Positions 22,450-51,597 of a DNA stretch of 64,000 nucleotides are shown in pieces. Below the pieces are notes generated by a model. That model did no database searches and was not told the origin of the DNA. It was given only the letters and a program-made list of their open reading frames with translations. Made by a program: the position numbers and the translations under genes. The stretch covers positions 1,674,001 through 1,738,000 of the forward strand of contig NZ_CP027786.1 of the NCBI RefSeq assembly GCF_003795145.1, given 5' to 3'. This DNA is from Tetragenococcus koreensis (GTDB lineage: Bacteria; Bacillota; Bacilli; Lactobacillales; Enterococcaceae). The number at the start of each line of letters is the position of its first letter. The stretch's first letter is position 1.

Positions 22450-22986
22450 TAAATAAAAAACGTTGAATATATTACAATATCTATTTTTTAATTCTCTAAA
22501 AATTAATTCAGTGTTGTTAATTCGTTTACCAATTTTTTTACTGTTAATGAACCTAAAGAGATACTTTATCATGGCACTCCTTGCTTTGTCTTTACAAGAG
22601 GAATACTCTCAATCTATAAGCTAAAAGTTGTGTTTAAAAACAACCGTAATTTGTAAGCTAACTTTTAGCCCGCGATAAAAAAATGTTAGCTAGCTACTTA
22701 CAGTATTTCCAGTTTAAAAACAGCCAATAAAATAATTATCAAACTACTTTGAATTCCAGAAACAATATAATAGTCGACTGTCCTGCTTTGACAGTTGTTT
22801 AGACATTAAGCCTTATTTTTAAGATAATCTACGCTATTCGGATTATTAAGTTTCAACAGTTCTTCTAAGTATTTCACTTGAGCGTTTTCTTTATATATAA
22901 TATCAAAAAATATTGTAAAAAATATCACAATATAATGAATTATATTATAATACTTTTAGCAACTGTCTTCCAAGATGTGAGTTCAA
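22450..22986. other. Gene-poor region with a hairpin and a possible peptide remnant
   Basis: GCTAAAAGTT (22620-22629) and AACTTTTAGC (22660-22669) form a 10-bp inverted repeat without a T run. On the minus strand 22806-22928 is open for 40 codons and ends QVKYLEELLKLNNPNSV-DYLKNKA, protein-like but with no ribosome site, perhaps the tail of a lost gene. The right end holds the AT-rich leader of the Fst-like toxin gene. Confidence 0.35.
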
Positions 22987-23073
22987 TTGTTCGATAAACA
23001 AATTTCGTGGGTTATCGCACCTATTTTTGTAGGGCTAGTAACGGTACTAATTAATCACTGGTTAGATGATTAA
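22987..23073 (+). CDS. Fst/Ldr-family type I toxin
   Basis: 28 codons from a TTG: residues include WVIAPIFVGLVTVLINHWLDD. This is the core of the Fst superfamily (IAPIxVGLVxxLxxxWL), one transmembrane helix that damages the membrane when overproduced. GTGAG is the only ribosome-site-like sequence, and it is weak, as in par loci where translation is repressed. A bidirectional terminator follows at 23131-23162, and a minus-strand promoter beyond it can make a convergent antitoxin RNA, as in par of pAD1. The start codon is the least certain point. Confidence 0.75.
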   Translation: MFDKQISWVIAPIFVGLVTVLINHWLDD

Positions 23074-23130
23074 GCGAAAGCCTTTGCAGTTGTCCTCTAA
23101 CTCCAACGCTGGAGGCGCAACAGTGCAAAG

Positions 23131-38796: not shown

Positions 38797-40318
38797 CTCA
38801 AGTTTCGCACACCAAATCTGGGAGATAAGCCTTGATATAACGGGGCAGAGTATCCACCCAGTGTTGGAGTTGACTTGTAATAAAATCTTGTAATTGGCTT
38901 CCTGATTCTTCGCTTACCGCTTGAATAATATGTACTAATTCGATAAGAGCAGCGGACCAATCGAGTTCTTTTATTTGATCGCCCAGTTCATAAAATAAGC
39001 CACCTAAGGTCCGCTCATCATTGGCACAGCGCTGCTGCCAGCTTAATAAAATATACCGTGTGAACACAATGGTGGTGTGACAAATTAAGGCTTGATAATG
39101 TCGCGTTTGTGTTTCTTTAGTCAGATGAAGCAATGATTTCGATGCCTTAAAAAATGTCTCGATGTCCCATCTCGCCGAGTATGTTTTGACCATTTCTTGG
39201 GAAGATAAATCCAGATCATCGGTCATAATCGCCAACCAAGCACTTTTCTTATTGTGATTTTTGACAAAAACGATTTTCACGGGATTTTTGCCGGAGCTTG
39301 GTTTCACCACAATCGAGGAAATAATCGCTTCTTGTGTATATTCTTTCGTAGATTTGGCATAAAGTTCTTCCAGCTTGTATAAACGTTGATGAAAAAGGTA
39401 TTTGGTTTTTCCATTTTTCACCATCCCAATGGTGTGAATCCCCATATCGTGTAATTGGTCTATCATTTTAGGGGAAGTAAACCATTTATCCATCAACACA
39501 TGGGTGGCGTAAATCCCTTGGTTCAAGGCGCGTTGAACCATCTCAAGTGCCACTTCGGGCATTTTACGACTTGATTCGTTGAATCGTTTGGCTCCTACGG
39601 TTCGTTGATCTTTTTCTGCTATTGTTTGGTTCACTTTTTTCTTACCGGATAGTAACCCGAAATCAATCGGAATGAAAGAATAGCCATCGGAGAACCCTAA
39701 AGTAAGCATACGATACCCTTTGTATCCTTGTTTGAGCGCATGATCCCAAAGACGAGCTAAGCCTGGTACCTCTTGGCTTCGATTACGATAAAACGTCGAA
39801 TCATCCAAGATCAACGTCCGAATATGGGTTTTCGTATCCGTTAAAGAATGGAGCTTTTCGATGACAGACGCACTAAACCGAAGTAAAAACAGACGCCAGT
39901 TGTTATGGGGATTGTTCATCCATCGATACACGGTATCTTTTTTCATGTATTGGTCGCTTTCCCGCCCACTGAGAACTTGGTTTAAGGATTTTCCTTTAAA
40001 GACGAGGCTAAAGAGAAAAGTGAATAGAATAGCCACCGAATACCCTTTTTGCTTTTCCATATGGGCTTGTTTTAAAAATTGCGTGACTTTTAATTCAGAA
40101 AAAAGGGCTTTTATTTCATTCGGTAATTGATTTTTAATAGCTTTTAAGTGTACCATAAAGGCAAGAACTCCTTTGTTTTTGGTTTGTGGTTAAATCAATT
40201 ATAAAACAAAAGGAGTTCTTTTTGTATAAAAAGGTAGGCAGTCAATATCAGGACTTTTTTCGACCTAAGAGTTGATAAGACCGTTGTTTAATATCATTTT
40301 ACATGTGCGAAACTTGAG
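38797..40318 (-). mobile_element. IS4-family element A, copy 1 (1522 bp)
   Basis: Ends are CTCAAGTTTCGCACA and its complement. TTATGA is repeated directly on both sides (38791-38796 and 40319-40324) as a 6-bp target duplication. It carries one intact transposase whose TGA stop lies inside the left terminal repeat. It is nearly identical to copy 2 at 61434-62953. Insertion is in intergenic DNA between the immunity-like gene and the DJ-1/PfpI gene. Confidence 0.92.
38798..40156 (-). CDS. IS4-family transposase (element A, intact)
   Basis: 452 residues with the DDE catalytic triad of IS4 transposases: TLILDDSTFYRN near 118, HVLMDKWF near 221, and the YREK motif YSARWDIETFFKASK near 330. The upstream leader has 12-bp complementary arms (40209-40220 and 40163-40174), the inner one containing the ribosome site AAAGGAG, with a TATAAT between them. 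Transcripts entering from outside would hide the ribosome site, limiting transposase made by read-through. Confidence 0.95.
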   Translation of the reverse strand: MVHLKAIKNQLPNEIKALFSELKVTQFLKQAHMEKQKGYSVAILFTFLFSLVFKGKSLNQVLSGRESDQYMKKDTVYRWMNNPHNNWRLFLLRFSASVIEKLHSLTDTKTHIRTLILDDSTFYRNRSQEVPGLARLWDHALKQGYKGYRMLTLGFSDGYSFIPIDFGLLSGKKKVNQTIAEKDQRTVGAKRFNESSRKMPEVALEMVQRALNQGIYATHVLMDKWFTSPKMIDQLHDMGIHTIGMVKNGKTKYLFHQRLYKLEELYAKSTKEYTQEAIISSIVVKPSSGKNPVKIVFVKNHNKKSAWLAIMTDDLDLSSQEMVKTYSARWDIETFFKASKSLLHLTKETQTRHYQALICHTTIVFTRYILLSWQQRCANDERTLGGLFYELGDQIKELDWSAALIELVHIIQAVSEESGSQLQDFITSQLQHWVDTLPRYIKAYLPDLVCET

Positions 40319-42435: not shown

Positions 42436-43998
42436 AACTTGAAACCTCTTCTTACAGTCTTATCCCTTGCTGTGCAGGCATTTTCTAAAGGAAAATTAAC
42501 TTGTCCCCGTCCCTTTAAGTTGATTTTGGACCGAAAAAGGGAGCTTGGCAAGGAATTGCTCGATAATGTTATTTAAAACCGTCTCATCTAAGATATATTC
42601 GTTGGCGAAAGCTTCTTGAAATAAATCCAATAACTGCATAATCGCTTCGGCCACAGAGAGCTCGGAAAGCTCATCGAGTAGTAAATAAAATAACTCGCCT
42701 ATCGTGCGGTCATCTTTACTTTCCCGTTCTTGAACGGCTAAAATCATATAAGCAACCGCAACGAGCGTCGTATGAGCGAAAATGCCATCGTAGGAAAGGC
42801 CTTGATATTTGGCCAATTTCAAATATTGCTTACACATTTTGAAGTAAATTTCAATGTTCCAGCGTCTAGAATAAAGCTGAATGATCTCGTCTTCGGTCAG
42901 GGCTGTATCTGTGGAAGCCAAAACGAGGTACTCATTGCGTTTATTGCGATTTCGAATATAGACTAGTTTTATCGGCAATCCCTCGTTGTCAACCAGGGCT
43001 TCCACTTGGACGCTTAGGAGATAACGTGAGCGGCCGCGACGTTTTTTATTGGCTTGAAAGATTTGTTTGACATCCATCATTTGTCCTTGGTAACGATAAT
43101 ACACCTTCTTTGAACGTTTGATCATGGCGACGCAGTGGCATTGCAAGGTGCGAATCTCTTGAAACATTTTAGGGCTCGAAAACCAGGTATCAAATAAGAC
43201 ATAGTCGGCTTGGACGCCTTGTTTCAGCGCCTCACGTAAGAGTTCTACCGTTACTTCTGTTCCTTTGCGGAAAGCCTGTGCGCGGCGTTTTCCCGCGTTT
43301 GTCCGTTGGTCCCCCAAGGGGTTATTTGATTGGATTTTTCGCTTTCCTGAAAGCAGCGAAAAAGCGACAGGGATAAAGCTATTGCCGTCACTCCAGCCTA
43401 ACTGTAAATAGCGAAAGCCTTTCAAATATTTCTTTTGGGCGTGATCATATTGGAGCGCTGCACATTCGACTTTTTGAGCGTTTAAGCGTGTGTACATGGA
43501 ATCATCAATAATAAAGGCCGTTTTCCGACCCTGACTTGTTAGCGGACGCAAAAAAGCCAAGACCGCTTTCGCAATCAAAATCTGAAGTTTTTGCCAGTGA
43601 ACCCGCGGATCGTTTAACAAATTTCGAAACGTTTTATCGGAAAAAGGAAGTTCCTCTTTTTGTTTTCGATAAGAGCGATAGGCCGATCCATTGGTAAAAA
43701 TCGAAGCCAGTAGAAAAGAAAAAATAACAGAAACTGGATGCCCTTTCTTGTGCTTGGCGTTGGATTTTTTCAGCGCATCAGAAAGGCGGAAACGATGAAA
43801 AAAGTTCGATATGGAATGCGAAATTTCTCCCGAAGTTGAGTTTGTTTGTGTTATAATTGACATAGCATGAACACTCCTTGGTTAGTGGTTTTTGGTTAAC
43901 TCTATTATACCAAGTTTGAGATCGTTCATGCTATTTTTTTATTTCATTTGACTGGTGTATCAATAGTTCAACGCTATTTTAGACCTTTCAAGTTTTAG
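42432..43998 (-). mobile_element. IS4-family element B (1567 bp) in the 3' end of the GST gene
   Basis: Terminal inverted repeats CTAAAACTTGAAA (42432-42444) and TTTCAAGTTTTAG (43986-43998) are flanked by direct repeats ATATTAA (42425-42431 and 43999-44005). It carries one transposase in the opposite direction to the GST gene. It differs from element A in sequence and ends. The GST terminator (44019-44067) now lies on its far side. Confidence 0.9.
42496..43863 (-). CDS. IS4-family transposase (element B)
   Basis: 455 residues. DDE residues: TAFIIDDSMYTRL near 120, YVLFDTWFSSPKM near 222, and the YREK motif YSRRWNIEIYFKMCKQ near 333. It appears full length. AAGGAG (43879-43874) and the ATG are preceded by arms GTTCATGCT/AGCATGAAC (43864-43872 and 43924-43932) that flank a minus-strand TATAAT, so external transcripts would fold over the start region. 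Confidence 0.95.
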   Translation of the reverse strand: MSIITQTNSTSGEISHSISNFFHRFRLSDALKKSNAKHKKGHPVSVIFSFLLASIFTNGSAYRSYRKQKEELPFSDKTFRNLLNDPRVHWQKLQILIAKAVLAFLRPLTSQGRKTAFIIDDSMYTRLNAQKVECAALQYDHAQKKYLKGFRYLQLGWSDGNSFIPVAFSLLSGKRKIQSNNPLGDQRTNAGKRRAQAFRKGTEVTVELLREALKQGVQADYVLFDTWFSSPKMFQEIRTLQCHCVAMIKRSKKVYYRYQGQMMDVKQIFQANKKRRGRSRYLLSVQVEALVDNEGLPIKLVYIRNRNKRNEYLVLASTDTALTEDEIIQLYSRRWNIEIYFKMCKQYLKLAKYQGLSYDGIFAHTTLVAVAYMILAVQERESKDDRTIGELFYLLLDELSELSVAEAIMQLLDLFQEAFANEYILDETVLNNIIEQFLAKLPFSVQNQLKGTGTS

Positions 43999-44018
43999 AT
44001 ATTAAGTAATATATGAAT

Positions 44019-44067
44019 AAAAACCCTTTATGAAGCGTGGTACTCCATGCTTCATAAAGGGTTTTTT
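44019..44067. terminator. Native terminator of the GST gene, displaced by the IS
   Basis: AAAAACCCTTTATGAAGC pairs perfectly with GCTTCATAAAGGGTTTTT, 10 bases after the pre-insertion GST stop codon. Confidence 0.85.
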
Positions 44068-44290
44068 ACTAAACATTGATTTAAATGAATCATTTATTTT
44101 CAGTTCTCACAATAATAGCAAAACAAGAAAGCGCTATTATATTTTCGTTTAAATAAACCAAATAATACAGTATAATTAAATAAAATAATTACTGACTTGC
44201 TGTAATTGAAGTGCAGTTTCATTATAGTCTTGGTAGCACCTTCTACAAATCACCAAATCATTTTCACGTTGGCAGGAAGGAGTGTTGCCA

Positions 44291-44329
44291 ATGAATTATG
44301 ATGGTAAAGGGAAAGGTCTAAGTTCCTAA
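44291..44329 (+). CDS. Tiny ORF MNYDGKGKGLSS in structured element 1
   Basis: Twelve codons after GGAAGGAG with 8 bases to the ATG. The equivalent ORF in copy 2 encodes MNSNGNGEG. Both peptides are Gly/Asn-rich and hydrophilic, unlike type I toxins; they may serve as a regulatory leader rather than a product. No plus-strand promoter with a good -35 is seen. Confidence 0.3.
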   Translation: MNYDGKGKGLSS

Positions 44330-44417
44330 TGAATTGTCCTTCTTTGGAAGATATCGTTAGCGTTCTATTCATAGTGAGATACTCATTAGAGATAATCGAG
44401 CTGTGGACAGATATACG

Positions 44418-44503
44418 AAAAAACTCTAAGAATTAAATCTTAGAGTTTAACCCCTACCATTACTATAATGATATGTGAAGGTATTGACCGTACCTTCACC
44501 TGT
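44418..44503 (-). ncRNA. Putative small RNA of structured element 1
   Basis: Promoter TTGTAT (44538-44533), 17 bases, TATAAT (44515-44510) with extended TGC. Predicted start near 44503; terminator AAACTCTAAGA/TCTTAGAGTTT at 44421-44448 followed by T's. Inside are stems GTGAAGGTA/TACCTTCAC and CATTA/TAATG, each present in copy 2 with compensating base changes. Confidence 0.6.
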
Positions 44504-44509
44504 GCTTCT

Positions 44510-44538
44510 ATTATAGCAAGTTTACTGTGTGAATACAA
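44510..44538 (-). promoter_or_regulatory. Promoter of small RNA 1
   Basis: TTGTAT-17-TATAAT with an extended -10 (TGCTATAAT), reading leftward into the element. Confidence 0.7.
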
Positions 44539-44726
44539 TATTTTTATCTTTTTCATCGAAAAACGTTTCTCAAAGTTTCCGTTTAAATATTAAAGTGATT
44601 TGATCACCTAAATTAAAATAATTATTCATTTGCTGTAACTGAAGTGCAGTTTGTTAAAGCCTTGGCAGCAAACCTACCATTAACCACCAATAACTCAAAA
44701 TCATTGGTGAGAGAGGAGTATTGCCA

Positions 44727-44756
44727 ATGAATAGCAATGGTAACGGGGAAGGTTAA
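44727..44756 (+). CDS. Tiny ORF MNSNGNGEG in structured element 2
   Basis: Nine codons after GAGAGGAG, start codon inside the hairpin stem CATTGG/CCAATG. It matches the copy 1 ORF in position and in its start but not in sequence, and may matter as a translated leader. Confidence 0.3.
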   Translation: MNSNGNGEG

Positions 44757-44779
44757 TTTGCTGCTAGAGATTGTAGATA

Positions 44780-44873
44780 AAATAAAAAGCTATAGAGATT
44801 AAGTCCTCCCTATAGCTCACCCTTGCCATTGCTTTAACAATGTGTGAGAGTGCCACCAGCACATCTCACCTGC
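44780..44873 (-). ncRNA. Putative small RNA of structured element 2
   Basis: Promoter TTGCCA (44908-44903), 17 bases, TATAAT (44885-44880). Terminator AGCTATAG/CTATAGCT at 44788-44817, then T's. Stems GTGAGA...GTGC with GCAC-TCTCAC, and CATTG/CAATG, occupy the places of the copy 1 stems with different sequence but kept pairing. Confidence 0.6.
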
Positions 44874-44879
44874 ATTTCA

Positions 44880-44908
44880 ATTATAGCAAGTTTTTATTTA
44901 ACTGGCAA
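44880..44908 (-). promoter_or_regulatory. Promoter of small RNA 2
   Basis: TTGCCA-17-TATAAT with extended TGC, the best sigma-A promoter in this region. Confidence 0.75.
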
Positions 44909-45291
44909 TAAATTTATTCTTCTTTAACAGCGGGGATGGTCTGCATAAACCTGGATTAAAACAGGAAACCATTGAGTTTCTCCAACGTTCAGAAAATGCC
45001 AAAATCTTAATTTACAGTATAGAATGTACAAGTGAACAAAAACGTGATCTTAAAAAGAATATCAAGAATATTAATGAAAAAGGCAGTTCCTACAAACTTA
45101 TTGGTTTACTTACCAGGCACTCCTTCAGTCCCAACATTATGTTCTGTTCGCAGTTTGTGGTCCGGATGCTCAAAGACATCAAACTGGACTATCTTCCTGA
45201 ACCAAAAGACTATTTCAGTCCGACAGACTTAATTGAACTCGATTACTATAGAAAGTTGAAACCTATTGATGAAATAACGCTCGAAAGTTAG
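44902..45291 (+). pseudogene. C-terminal fragment of a permuted papain-like hydrolase-type protein
   Basis: Open for 129 codons without a start or ribosome site, right after structured element 2. It reads SGDGLHKPGLKQETIEFL, then KLIGLLTRHSFSPNIMFCSQFVV and YFSPTDLIELDYYRKLKPI. The order of a Cys in CSQFV followed by a SPTDL-type segment recalls the C-terminal half of YiiX/YebB-like cysteine hydrolases. The N-terminal part is gone, so it is a truncated gene. Confidence 0.5.
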
Positions 45292-51328: not shown

Positions 51329-51597
51329 AAAAAAAGCCCTTTTACCAACAATTTAATGTTGATAAAAGGACGAGTTATCGTGGTACCACCTTTGTTTAGA
51401 AGTTTCCTTCTCTTATTCCGACAAATTGTACTATCGGTGCCCTTTTTTAACGAATAGACTTAATCCGAAACTGTTTACTTATCAACAGTTTTTCTCAGAG
51501 ACCATTTTCAACTCTTCCAACAGATCTTTTTCACCAACCAAGATCTCTCTAAATATTTTCCAAGTCTACTTTTCTCTTCGCAGAATTTTTGTATTTT
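51329..51597 (-). promoter_or_regulatory. T-box riboswitch, methionine specifier, upstream of metQ
   Basis: The leader holds the T-box bulge TGGTACCACG (51388-51379) and an alternative terminator, CCTTTTATCAACA with TGTTGGTAAAAGG, then seven T's, at 51371-51329. Stem I is closed by AGAGA and TCTCT-like arms, and its specifier loop GAAAATGG presents ATG (51505-51503). Uncharged tRNA-Met would favour the antiterminator and switch metQ on. Confidence 0.92.

Follow-up and report, generated by a model that had tools for sequence, protein, structure and literature searches.

A probable new family of type I toxin–antitoxin modules in Enterococcaceae with a leader open reading frame and a toxin mRNA predicted to be closed end to end

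The window analysed here is a stretch of 64,000 nucleotides of Tetragenococcus koreensis (assembly GCF_003795145.1, contig NZ_CP027786.1, positions 1,674,001 to 1,738,000). It contains two diverged copies of one element, at 44195–44524 and 44628–44894. The element probably belongs to a new family of type I toxin–antitoxin modules, which would combine a convergence of two RNAs like that of par/Fst, a leader open reading frame (ORF) like that of hok, and the end-to-end closure of the toxin mRNA. The evidence consists of the sequences, predicted folds, compensatory changes, coding constraint and promoter- and terminator-like signals. As in type I systems, the element contains a gene for a short hydrophobic peptide and, at the level of sequence and consensus, a gene for a complementary antisense RNA with its promoter and terminator.

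Both copies are built on a common plan, with inverted arms of 22 nt, a leftward promoter, a terminated leftward RNA of about 90 nt (RNA II), a ribosome site and a tiny ORF (Table 1). This plan had been outlined in a preliminary description based on the sequence of the window, and most of its parts were recovered in place, including the two diverged copies, the inverted repeats of about 22 bp, the intrinsic terminators of the leftward RNA, both found by a terminator scan, and the ribosome site in a hairpin before ORFs of 9 and 12 codons. The extended −10 box with a matched −35 box, also described there, was found in copy 2; in copy 1 the extended −10 box (TGCTATAAT) is present, but the −35 box agrees with the consensus at 3/6 positions by eye and was not listed by the scan, so that the word “matched” was an overstatement. 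In several relatives, a −35 box of the TTGAC type in the RNA II promoter and a box similar to the likely promoter of the rightward RNA of copy 1 were recognised by eye. Promoters are not enriched as such (five promoter-like sites by scan versus 3.9 ± 2.1 in shuffles); there are two leftward terminators versus 0.5 ± 0.7 in shuffles. Within each copy, all repeats of at least 12 nt are inverted, and direct repeats run between the copies, plus one to position 43901. A blast search of the 2.73-Mb genome (G000) revealed no third copy; the third of its three matches is a palindromic terminator on the opposite strand. Two features had been overlooked in the preliminary description, namely a second ORF and the behaviour of the inverted repeats as paired RNA ends.

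The second ORF, which encodes 25–35 residues, follows or overlaps the tiny Gly-rich ORF in relatives of the element. Examples of its predicted product, the putative toxin, are MLKDIMTILTIINLLLEIGNKIKDFKE (genome G006), MLEDIMTILAMVNLLLEIVDKIKKL (G008, of the same genus as the window), MLQNILAILTIINLILEIANKIKSLKD (an Enterococcus gallinarum plasmid) and MLESIWQILMIVRLIIEIAHELKKDPKE (G074). Over 18 codons in eight relatives and copy 1, there are no in-frame stops in the toxin frame, versus 30 and 7 in the other frames. In the eight relatives, the ratio of nonsynonymous to synonymous differences (pN/pS) over these codons is 0.39 in the toxin frame versus 0.56 and 1.98 in the other frames, and the second position varies in 7/18 codons and the third in 17/18; copy 1, the start region of which was aligned by hand, was omitted from these figures and retained in the stop count. 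The predicted toxins are hydrophobic and amphipathic, with a hydropathy maximum of 2.0–2.9 over 15 residues and a helical hydrophobic moment of 0.39–0.68. Searches of Pfam, NCBIfam and PHROGs gave no significant family for the toxin peptides. In a first scan, three toxins and one leader had no family in Pfam and NCBIfam; a later Pfam scan matched DUF3985 to one of three peptides at E 0.039 and 14.4 bits, under the cut-off of 25, and phrog_26004 matched the copy 1 peptide at a non-significant E of 0.15. Judging by the sequence, copy 1 appears to be intact, and copy 2 has lost half of its predicted toxin and retains the presumed antitoxin.

The leader ORF has a strong Shine–Dalgarno (SD) sequence in 15/15 copies (−9.5 to −13.4 kcal/mol), and that of the toxin ORF is nearly absent in 10 of 14 copies (+0.1 to −2.8 kcal/mol). 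The two start codons are 29–43 nt apart, with all three relative frames represented. The leader stop is located 2–16 nt upstream of the toxin start in 8/14 copies, and in another 4/14 (G006a and three G074 copies) the leader overruns the toxin start in a different frame. This arrangement fits mostly separate ORFs that would be linked by termination and reinitiation. Lineages differ in the leader peptide and in the frame it occupies with respect to the toxin, while the toxin frame is kept. As no single frame preserves the leader peptide from lineage to lineage, selection is likely to act on the nucleotide sequence or its translation and not on the product. It is most likely that the Gly/Asn ORF is a translated leader and not the product of the element.

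Sixteen copies of the leftward RNA were used to build a covariance model (R1). In an alignment of 30 matches to the model, 29 of them distinct, 96.5% of cells are paired. The covariation proposed earlier from two copies held when more were aligned, with double changes in 17 of the 23 pairs among the 29 distinct sequences, versus 8.1 ± 1.4 in shuffled alignments; the alignment was fitted to the model, and the counts lean towards it. The model matches RNA II of copy 1 at 44410–44511 with 78.9 bits, copy 1 itself being in the model. The predicted RNA II starts in the right arm and extends over the 3′ closing arm, the hairpins and the final codons of the toxin, whose stop codon lies inside the terminator hairpin of RNA II. 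The T-run is present on the RNA II side only; on the opposite strand, that of the rightward RNA (RNA I), no more than three consecutive T residues are found in the 14 nt past the hairpin in 15/15 copies. The complementarity of RNA II is limited to the 3′ part of RNA I and does not include the leader ribosome site. The earlier suggestion of a type I antitoxin-like module agrees with these data, as the leftward RNA lies antisense to a short, conserved ORF for a hydrophobic peptide. The parallel suggestion of a new small-RNA element was right as to the small RNA, which would be only one half of a toxin–antitoxin pair. A lone RNA II was observed in genome G008 (L009, 1514–1616), where no toxin half was recognised alongside by eye; it is possibly an orphan antitoxin.

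RNA I, taken from arm to arm, has a predicted folding energy of −91 to −130 kcal/mol in 10 copies, with z from −7.8 to −12.1 against shuffles, and its energy is lower than that of its complement in 9/10 (the exception is copy 2). The 5′ arm is predicted to pair with the 3′ end in 15/15 aligned copies (mean p 0.81–0.94). The 10-copy consensus comprises the closing stem, an inner 5′–3′ helix and another covering the leader SD region, one hairpin each at the toxin start and inside the toxin ORF, and two hairpins common to RNA II. In this structure of 86 pairs, 91.9% of cells are paired versus 83.6% in shuffled alignments. Double changes occur in 38/86 pairs versus 19.4 ± 2.6 (a value that none of 500 shuffles reached) and 7–13 with the partners slid. 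The 15-copy consensus has 60 pairs, 30 of them with double changes. Compensatory changes in the 5′ closing arm of copy 1 are present in relatives, and the G074 copies fold closed through partly different sequences. In most copies the leader SD is predicted to be mostly paired. Omitted from the RNA I alignments were three rows whose left end is absent or deviates (G006b, G077d and G077e), one that lacks its right end (G010), G060, which is interrupted and in part masked, the copies with insertions (L098, L100, L102 and L105), the L108 copy, and L107, which is intact and close to L104.

The arms match each other more closely than they match those of other copies, 96% of positions being paired between own arms (lowest 90%), 93% between arms of the same group and 86% between arms of other groups. 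For five representatives, the true matching alone among 120 permutations reaches the observed sum. Where G.U preserves a pair on one RNA strand, the opposite strand has A.C, and the mismatches show a preference for one of the two. Read on the strand of RNA I, the closing stem contains 15 G.U versus 1 A.C in 10 copies and 16 versus 3 in 15 copies, where composition expects 1.26 to 1. The leader, toxin-start and toxin-ORF helices likewise lean to G.U on the RNA I strand; in the terminator of RNA II the preference is reversed (G.U versus A.C on the RNA I strand 3 to 6 in 10 copies and 3 to 7 in 15). The mismatches of the inverted repeats, mostly G.U on the strand of the toxin mRNA, argue that these repeats are paired RNA ends.

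Table 1. Features of the two copies of the element (positions in the window; RNA I, predicted toxin mRNA; RNA II, predicted antisense RNA)
Feature	Position	Strand	Basis or remark
Copy 1 likely RNA I (toxin mRNA) promoter	44148–44176	+	TTTAAA-17-TATAAT, 10/12, consensus scan
Copy 1 RNA I 5′ closing arm (left inverted repeat)	44195–44216	+	Pairs with 44500–44521, mean p 0.94
Copy 1 inner 5′ arm	44219–44236	+	Pairs with 44454–44471, 89% complementary; helix 2 of the 10-copy structure
Copy 1 leader SD in hairpin loop	44274–44282	+	Anti-SD duplex −12.7 kcal/mol; predicted fold
Copy 1 leader ORF, 12 codons	44291–44329	+	MNYDGKGKGLSS and stop; sequence
Copy 1 predicted toxin ORF, 35 aa	44329–44436	+	ATG overlaps leader stop (TAATG); purifying selection on the frame in relatives
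Copy 1 RNA II, antisense, about 89 nt, presumed antitoxin	44415–44503	−	Ends inferred from promoter and terminator
Copy 1 RNA II intrinsic terminator	44421–44448	−	Terminator scan; holds the toxin stop codon
Copy 1 hairpin 1	44475–44499	Either	GTGAAGGTA/TACCTTCAC; formable by both RNAs
Copy 1 RNA I 3′ closing arm (right inverted repeat)	44500–44521	+	Also contains the −10 box of RNA II
Copy 1 RNA II promoter	44510–44538	−	TTGTAT-17-TATAAT, extended −10 TG; sequence
Copy 2 RNA I 5′ closing arm	44628–44649	+	Predicted fold
Copy 2 leader ORF, 9 codons	44727–44756	+	MNSNGNGEG and stop; sequence
Copy 2 toxin ORF remnant, first half missing	44737–44802	+	Lacks 51 nt present in relative G008a (alignment)
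Copy 2 RNA II	44776–44873	−	Model match 44776–44881, 77.7 bits (copy 2 itself in model)
Copy 2 RNA II intrinsic terminator	44787–44818	−	Terminator scan
Copy 2 RNA I 3′ closing arm	44870–44891	+	Predicted fold
Copy 2 RNA II promoter	44880–44908	−	TTGCCA-17-TATAAT with TG, 11/12

DNA searches within the genus found matches in 3/9 genomes for each of two queries, and searches within the family found them in 12/105 and 9/105 genomes for two other queries. The covariance search, run with R1 across the family and the order, yielded further copies. In the family it matched 10/103 genomes from 5/17 genera, with nine matches in G074 and five in G077, on several contigs; neighbouring pairs of copies occur in G000, G006 and G058. 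Eight of 395 genomes of the order were matched before inspection. From their sequences, the matches in G277, G137 and G301 were judged to be chance terminators without a toxin ORF, and that in G010 a remnant. A second model, run across the class, matched 1/398 genomes, that of the window alone, and among relatives of G074 matches were found in 3/40 (G058, G074 and G077). The R1 searches and the class search were strictly filtered, and G005 was missed by both R1 searches. A scan of named genomes for the leader pattern gave 14 stretches, eight of them in Enterococcaceae (Enterococcus innesii GAL7, Enterococcus sp. JM4C, 8G7_MSG3316, RIT-PI-f, MJM16, and a metagenome-assembled genome of Tetragenococcus); the six stretches in unrelated phyla were set aside, uninspected, by taxonomy alone. 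In the sets searched, the inspected copies are confined to Enterococcaceae.

The element is also present on plasmids. Matches were found in 137 of 72,556 plasmid records, all of Enterococcus, 105 of which are predicted to be conjugative; 61 of the 137 cover at least 80% of the query, and the identity is 84–86% among the matches listed. All came with the G058 query, and the copy 1 query matched none of the plasmid records. The carrier plasmids are large and mostly conjugative, and many are from human isolates. In the copies of Enterococcus faecium (L109) and E. gallinarum (L110), both the leader and the toxin frames are open. According to a gene table that is incomplete, no annotated feature lies under the match in 27/27 full-cover rows of a 60-row spread or in the 20 best rows. 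Of 32 rows with half a copy, 25 are labelled ADP-ribosylglycohydrolase family protein and seven are unlabelled; one more row covers 27%. At L111 (4784–5008, NZ_CP027518.1), the ORF with this label is short and lies beside a half copy, slightly overlapping it. An ORF so labelled occurs on many E. faecium plasmids, adjoining a RelBE-type module, and the label is possibly spurious.

No element was found in phage records; the viral contig L090, which contains the leader pattern, was rejected as a chance match within a long ORF. Rfam gave no match in the element at the gathering score, nor anything in it at E up to 1, where models of micro-RNAs and of a plastid 3′ untranslated region matched the neighbouring hairpin at 44012–44070. 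An inverted repeat of 22 nt with a T-run is located at 44019–44066. The element is unnamed in the titles and abstract starts of open-licence PubMed Central papers among the matches listed, a set outside which subscription journals and preprints lie. The accessible parts of two E. faecium RNA studies (PMC7724050, PMC10117718) and of a small RNA (sRNA) paper (PMC8631354) do not mention it, the carriage of the element by their strains being unchecked. Other features observed in the window are two transposase-like ORFs near the elements (38798–40156 and 42496–43863, by eye), an open frame of 123 codons at 44920–45291 with no Pfam match at E 0.01, which by eye is a 3′ gene remnant adjoining copy 2, and a T-box leader at 51363–51590 on the minus strand (107.5 bits).

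The element could also be a non-autonomous mobile element similar to a miniature inverted-repeat transposable element (MITE), in which the inverted ends are transposase sites and an RNA gene is carried by chance; a MITE with an RNA gene had been among the options in the preliminary description. The inverted arms of 22 nt, the multiple matches in G074 and G077 and the neighbouring pairs would suit such an element, and most pairs among seven copies share no detectable flank at E 1e-3. Similarity continues past the arms for 199 nt on the left and 48 nt on the right in G074e and G074h, and for 74 and 23 nt in the neighbours G077a and G077c, which speaks against a MITE; the flank test is weak, as the copies other than these two pairs (similar for 23–199 nt) are uninformative on boundaries. 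The mismatches of the arms are mostly G.U when read on one strand, a bias expected from RNA pairing and not from transposase-bound DNA ends, and the inner ORF is under purifying selection, so that the MITE explanation is unlikely. Mobility of the element would not exclude a toxin–antitoxin module and is compatible with it.

It seems very unlikely that the element is a pair of structured non-coding RNAs acting in trans, with the short ORFs untranslated. The very strong fold of the rightward strand and the compensatory changes inside the toxin ORF (helices 6, 8 and 9) are in line with this explanation, but it does not account for the conserved toxin frame with its low second-position change, or for the strong leader SD in all 15 copies.

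Slightly less probable still is a drifted member of the par/Fst (Fst/Ldr) family. The parts follow the same order as in par/Fst, with convergent promoters, a short hydrophobic peptide, an antisense RNA and a sequestered SD and 5′ end (PMC7472228, in the portion available). The host family is the same, and Fst-like matches occur in 54/103 genomes, but among the matches listed at E ≤ 0.01 none for Fst is at an element. When profiles of 13 toxins and 15 Fst peptides, several of the latter identical, were compared, the probability was 0.3–0.4%, and the P-x-x-x-G and W features are absent from the toxin peptides. The repeats inside a copy are inverted and not direct, and the shared hairpin is followed by few T residues on the RNA I strand, as described above. 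Membership in Fst was rejected, the peptide being unrelated. Elsewhere in the window, the Rfam family RefB11 (Enterococcus sRNA B11) matches at 22958–23130 and overlaps an Fst-like ORF at about 23005–23064 (frame ISWVIAPIFVGLVTVLINHWLDD), for which Pfam Fst gives E 0.0013, below the cut-off; this RefB11 looks like a par/Fst toxin mRNA.

The least probable explanation is a secreted or surface amphipathic peptide, similar to modulins, under antisense control and without self-toxicity, for which the helical hydrophobic moment would be suitable, but the location on conjugative plasmids suits addiction, and hidden start sites combined with an antisense RNA in cis usually point to a toxin that acts inside the cell.

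Several observations weigh against a type I module with a closed mRNA and a leader-dependent toxin. In 4/14 copies, copy 1 included, a moderate SD (−5.9 to −8.2 kcal/mol) precedes the toxin start itself. In 2/14 (G077a and G077c) the leader and the toxin form one continuous frame, and coupling is therefore unneeded there. The leader SD of copy 1 is predicted to be mostly open (0.79–0.88), as are those of copy 2 and G074a. The leader SD stays closed when the 3′ end is removed in silico (mean unpaired 0.36 before and 0.40 after, 15 copies); for this reason activation by 3′ trimming, as in hok, is not supported by thermodynamic prediction. The end of RNA I is assumed, a T-run of at least four following the right arm in 11/15 copies and only three T residues in copy 1. 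Addition of the G074 copies removes two elements from the consensus, the hairpin inside the toxin ORF and the SD helix, and leaves the closing stem and the toxin-start hairpin in place; the loss is perhaps due to poor alignment of the G074 copies. Many copies are decayed, and several in G074 (L098, L100, L102 and L105) are broken by short repeat-like insertions, either after the toxin ORF or between the SD and the leader start. Hairpin 1 can be formed by both RNAs, and its bias favours the strand of RNA I (9 to 1 in 10 copies and 15 to 2 in 15), and seven of the 15 closing-stem G.U cells stand in one column, so that the independent evidence is smaller than the count. The RNA I structures were derived from the same alignments in which the changes were counted, and the slid and shuffled controls only lessen this circularity. 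One of the five measures for RNA II, that of further pair types, is not above shuffles (27 versus 29.4). The copies are related and their cells are not independent events; the signals of both RNAs may partly reflect common descent.

Considering these points together with the coding constraint and the compensatory changes, the type I module is still regarded as probable, and we infer from it a mechanism that brings together transcription of two RNAs with defined ends, toxicity, coupling and antisense action. The rightward mRNA, RNA I, would be about 310–340 nt long and would contain the short leader ORF with its strong ribosome site and then the toxin ORF. The toxin, a hydrophobic amphipathic peptide of 25–35 residues, is presumed to be a membrane-active self-toxin. 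RNA I, closed from 5′ to 3′, would be mostly untranslatable, with the toxin start in a hairpin of its own, and the toxin would be made only after ribosomes have translated the leader, by termination and reinitiation. The convergent, terminated RNA II of about 90 nt, whose complementarity to the 3′ part of RNA I is perfect, would form a duplex with RNA I, and translation would be blocked or RNA I cleaved. Upon depletion of RNA II, for example after plasmid loss, the surviving RNA I would be translated by way of the leader, and the peptide would act on the cell membrane. As to the opening of RNA I, a structural switch of the kind proposed for timP, in the part of PMC11228461 available, may be as likely as 3′ trimming. 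Alternatively, the closure may serve stability, like the upstream helix in par (PMC7472228, in part).

The 3′ strand can be bound by either the 5′ arm of RNA I or the start of RNA II, and this accounts for the resemblance of the two. A tentative extension, somewhat less likely to be right than wrong, is that this 5′ arm is a diverged duplicate of the RNA II start and a built-in mimic of the antitoxin. The 3′ strand would then be contested in cis by the closure and in trans by RNA II, forming, together with the leader, a two-lock switch that would act as an addiction system on the conjugative plasmids of E. faecium. We know of no Gram-positive toxin–antitoxin system with such a switch. In hok/sok of Gram-negative bacteria, the antisense RNA and the mRNA end reportedly compete for one site, which is a related competition, at the opposite end of the mRNA. 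If the proposed module is real, a toxin–antitoxin family has been overlooked by annotation, and it may aid the persistence of Enterococcus plasmids. Its many diverged natural copies would be a ready set for studying control shared by closure, leader translation and antisense RNA.

As described in the available parts of PMC7472228 and PMC4147584, the convergent RNAs of par/Fst have direct repeats and a terminator in common, and the peptide is Fst. The element resembles par/Fst of pAD1 in the convergent mRNA and antisense RNA overlapping at their 3′ ends, the hydrophobic peptide and the enterococcal hosts; the convergent promoters of the element are recognised at consensus level. The sequestration of the SD and the 5′ end of RNA I is also common to both, as a prediction for the element, in which the SD is mostly open in copies 1, 2 and G074a. 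The element does not have an Fst peptide with P-x-x-x-G and the conserved W (PF13955), the direct repeats DRa/DRb common to both RNAs or a bidirectional intrinsic terminator. Unlike par/Fst, it has a leader ORF, an mRNA predicted to be closed from 5′ to 3′ and an antisense RNA over the 3′ end of the toxin ORF.

With hok/mok/sok of plasmid R1 the element shares a leader ORF with a good ribosome site and an mRNA structured through its 3′ end, and in that system the toxin needs translation of the leader (PMC4147584 and PMC8309996, as far as accessible). The leader abuts or overlaps the toxin ORF in 12/14 copies (8 abutting and 4 overlapping, 2 being continuous), which is a likeness of architecture only, and the 3′ end is predicted to fold back on the 5′ region. 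In contrast to hok/sok, the peptide is not of the Hok family, 3′ trimming is not predicted to open the leader ribosome site, RNA II is directed at the 3′ part of the mRNA and not at the leader ribosome site, and the hosts are Gram-positive.

BsrG/SR4 of Bacillus subtilis likewise has an antisense RNA that converges on its short hydrophobic toxin gene from the 3′ side. To our knowledge, neither this system nor txpA/RatA has a leader ORF or 5′–3′ closure, and no Rfam family matches the element at the gathering score. In txpA/RatA of B. subtilis, the gene for the short hydrophobic toxin is also met at its 3′ end by a convergent antisense RNA (PMC4147584, in part). The timP/TimR system is similar in that the mRNA structure hides the ribosome site and a putative upstream ORF is present (PMC11228461, available portion); it differs from the element in being enterobacterial, in its pseudoknot control and in an antitoxin that binds the 5′ untranslated region. 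The design thus would unite par-like convergence, a hok-like leader and end-to-end closure, parts known from separate systems, and the element should be regarded as a type I-like module which has parts of both the par/Fst and the hok/sok designs and is a member of neither.

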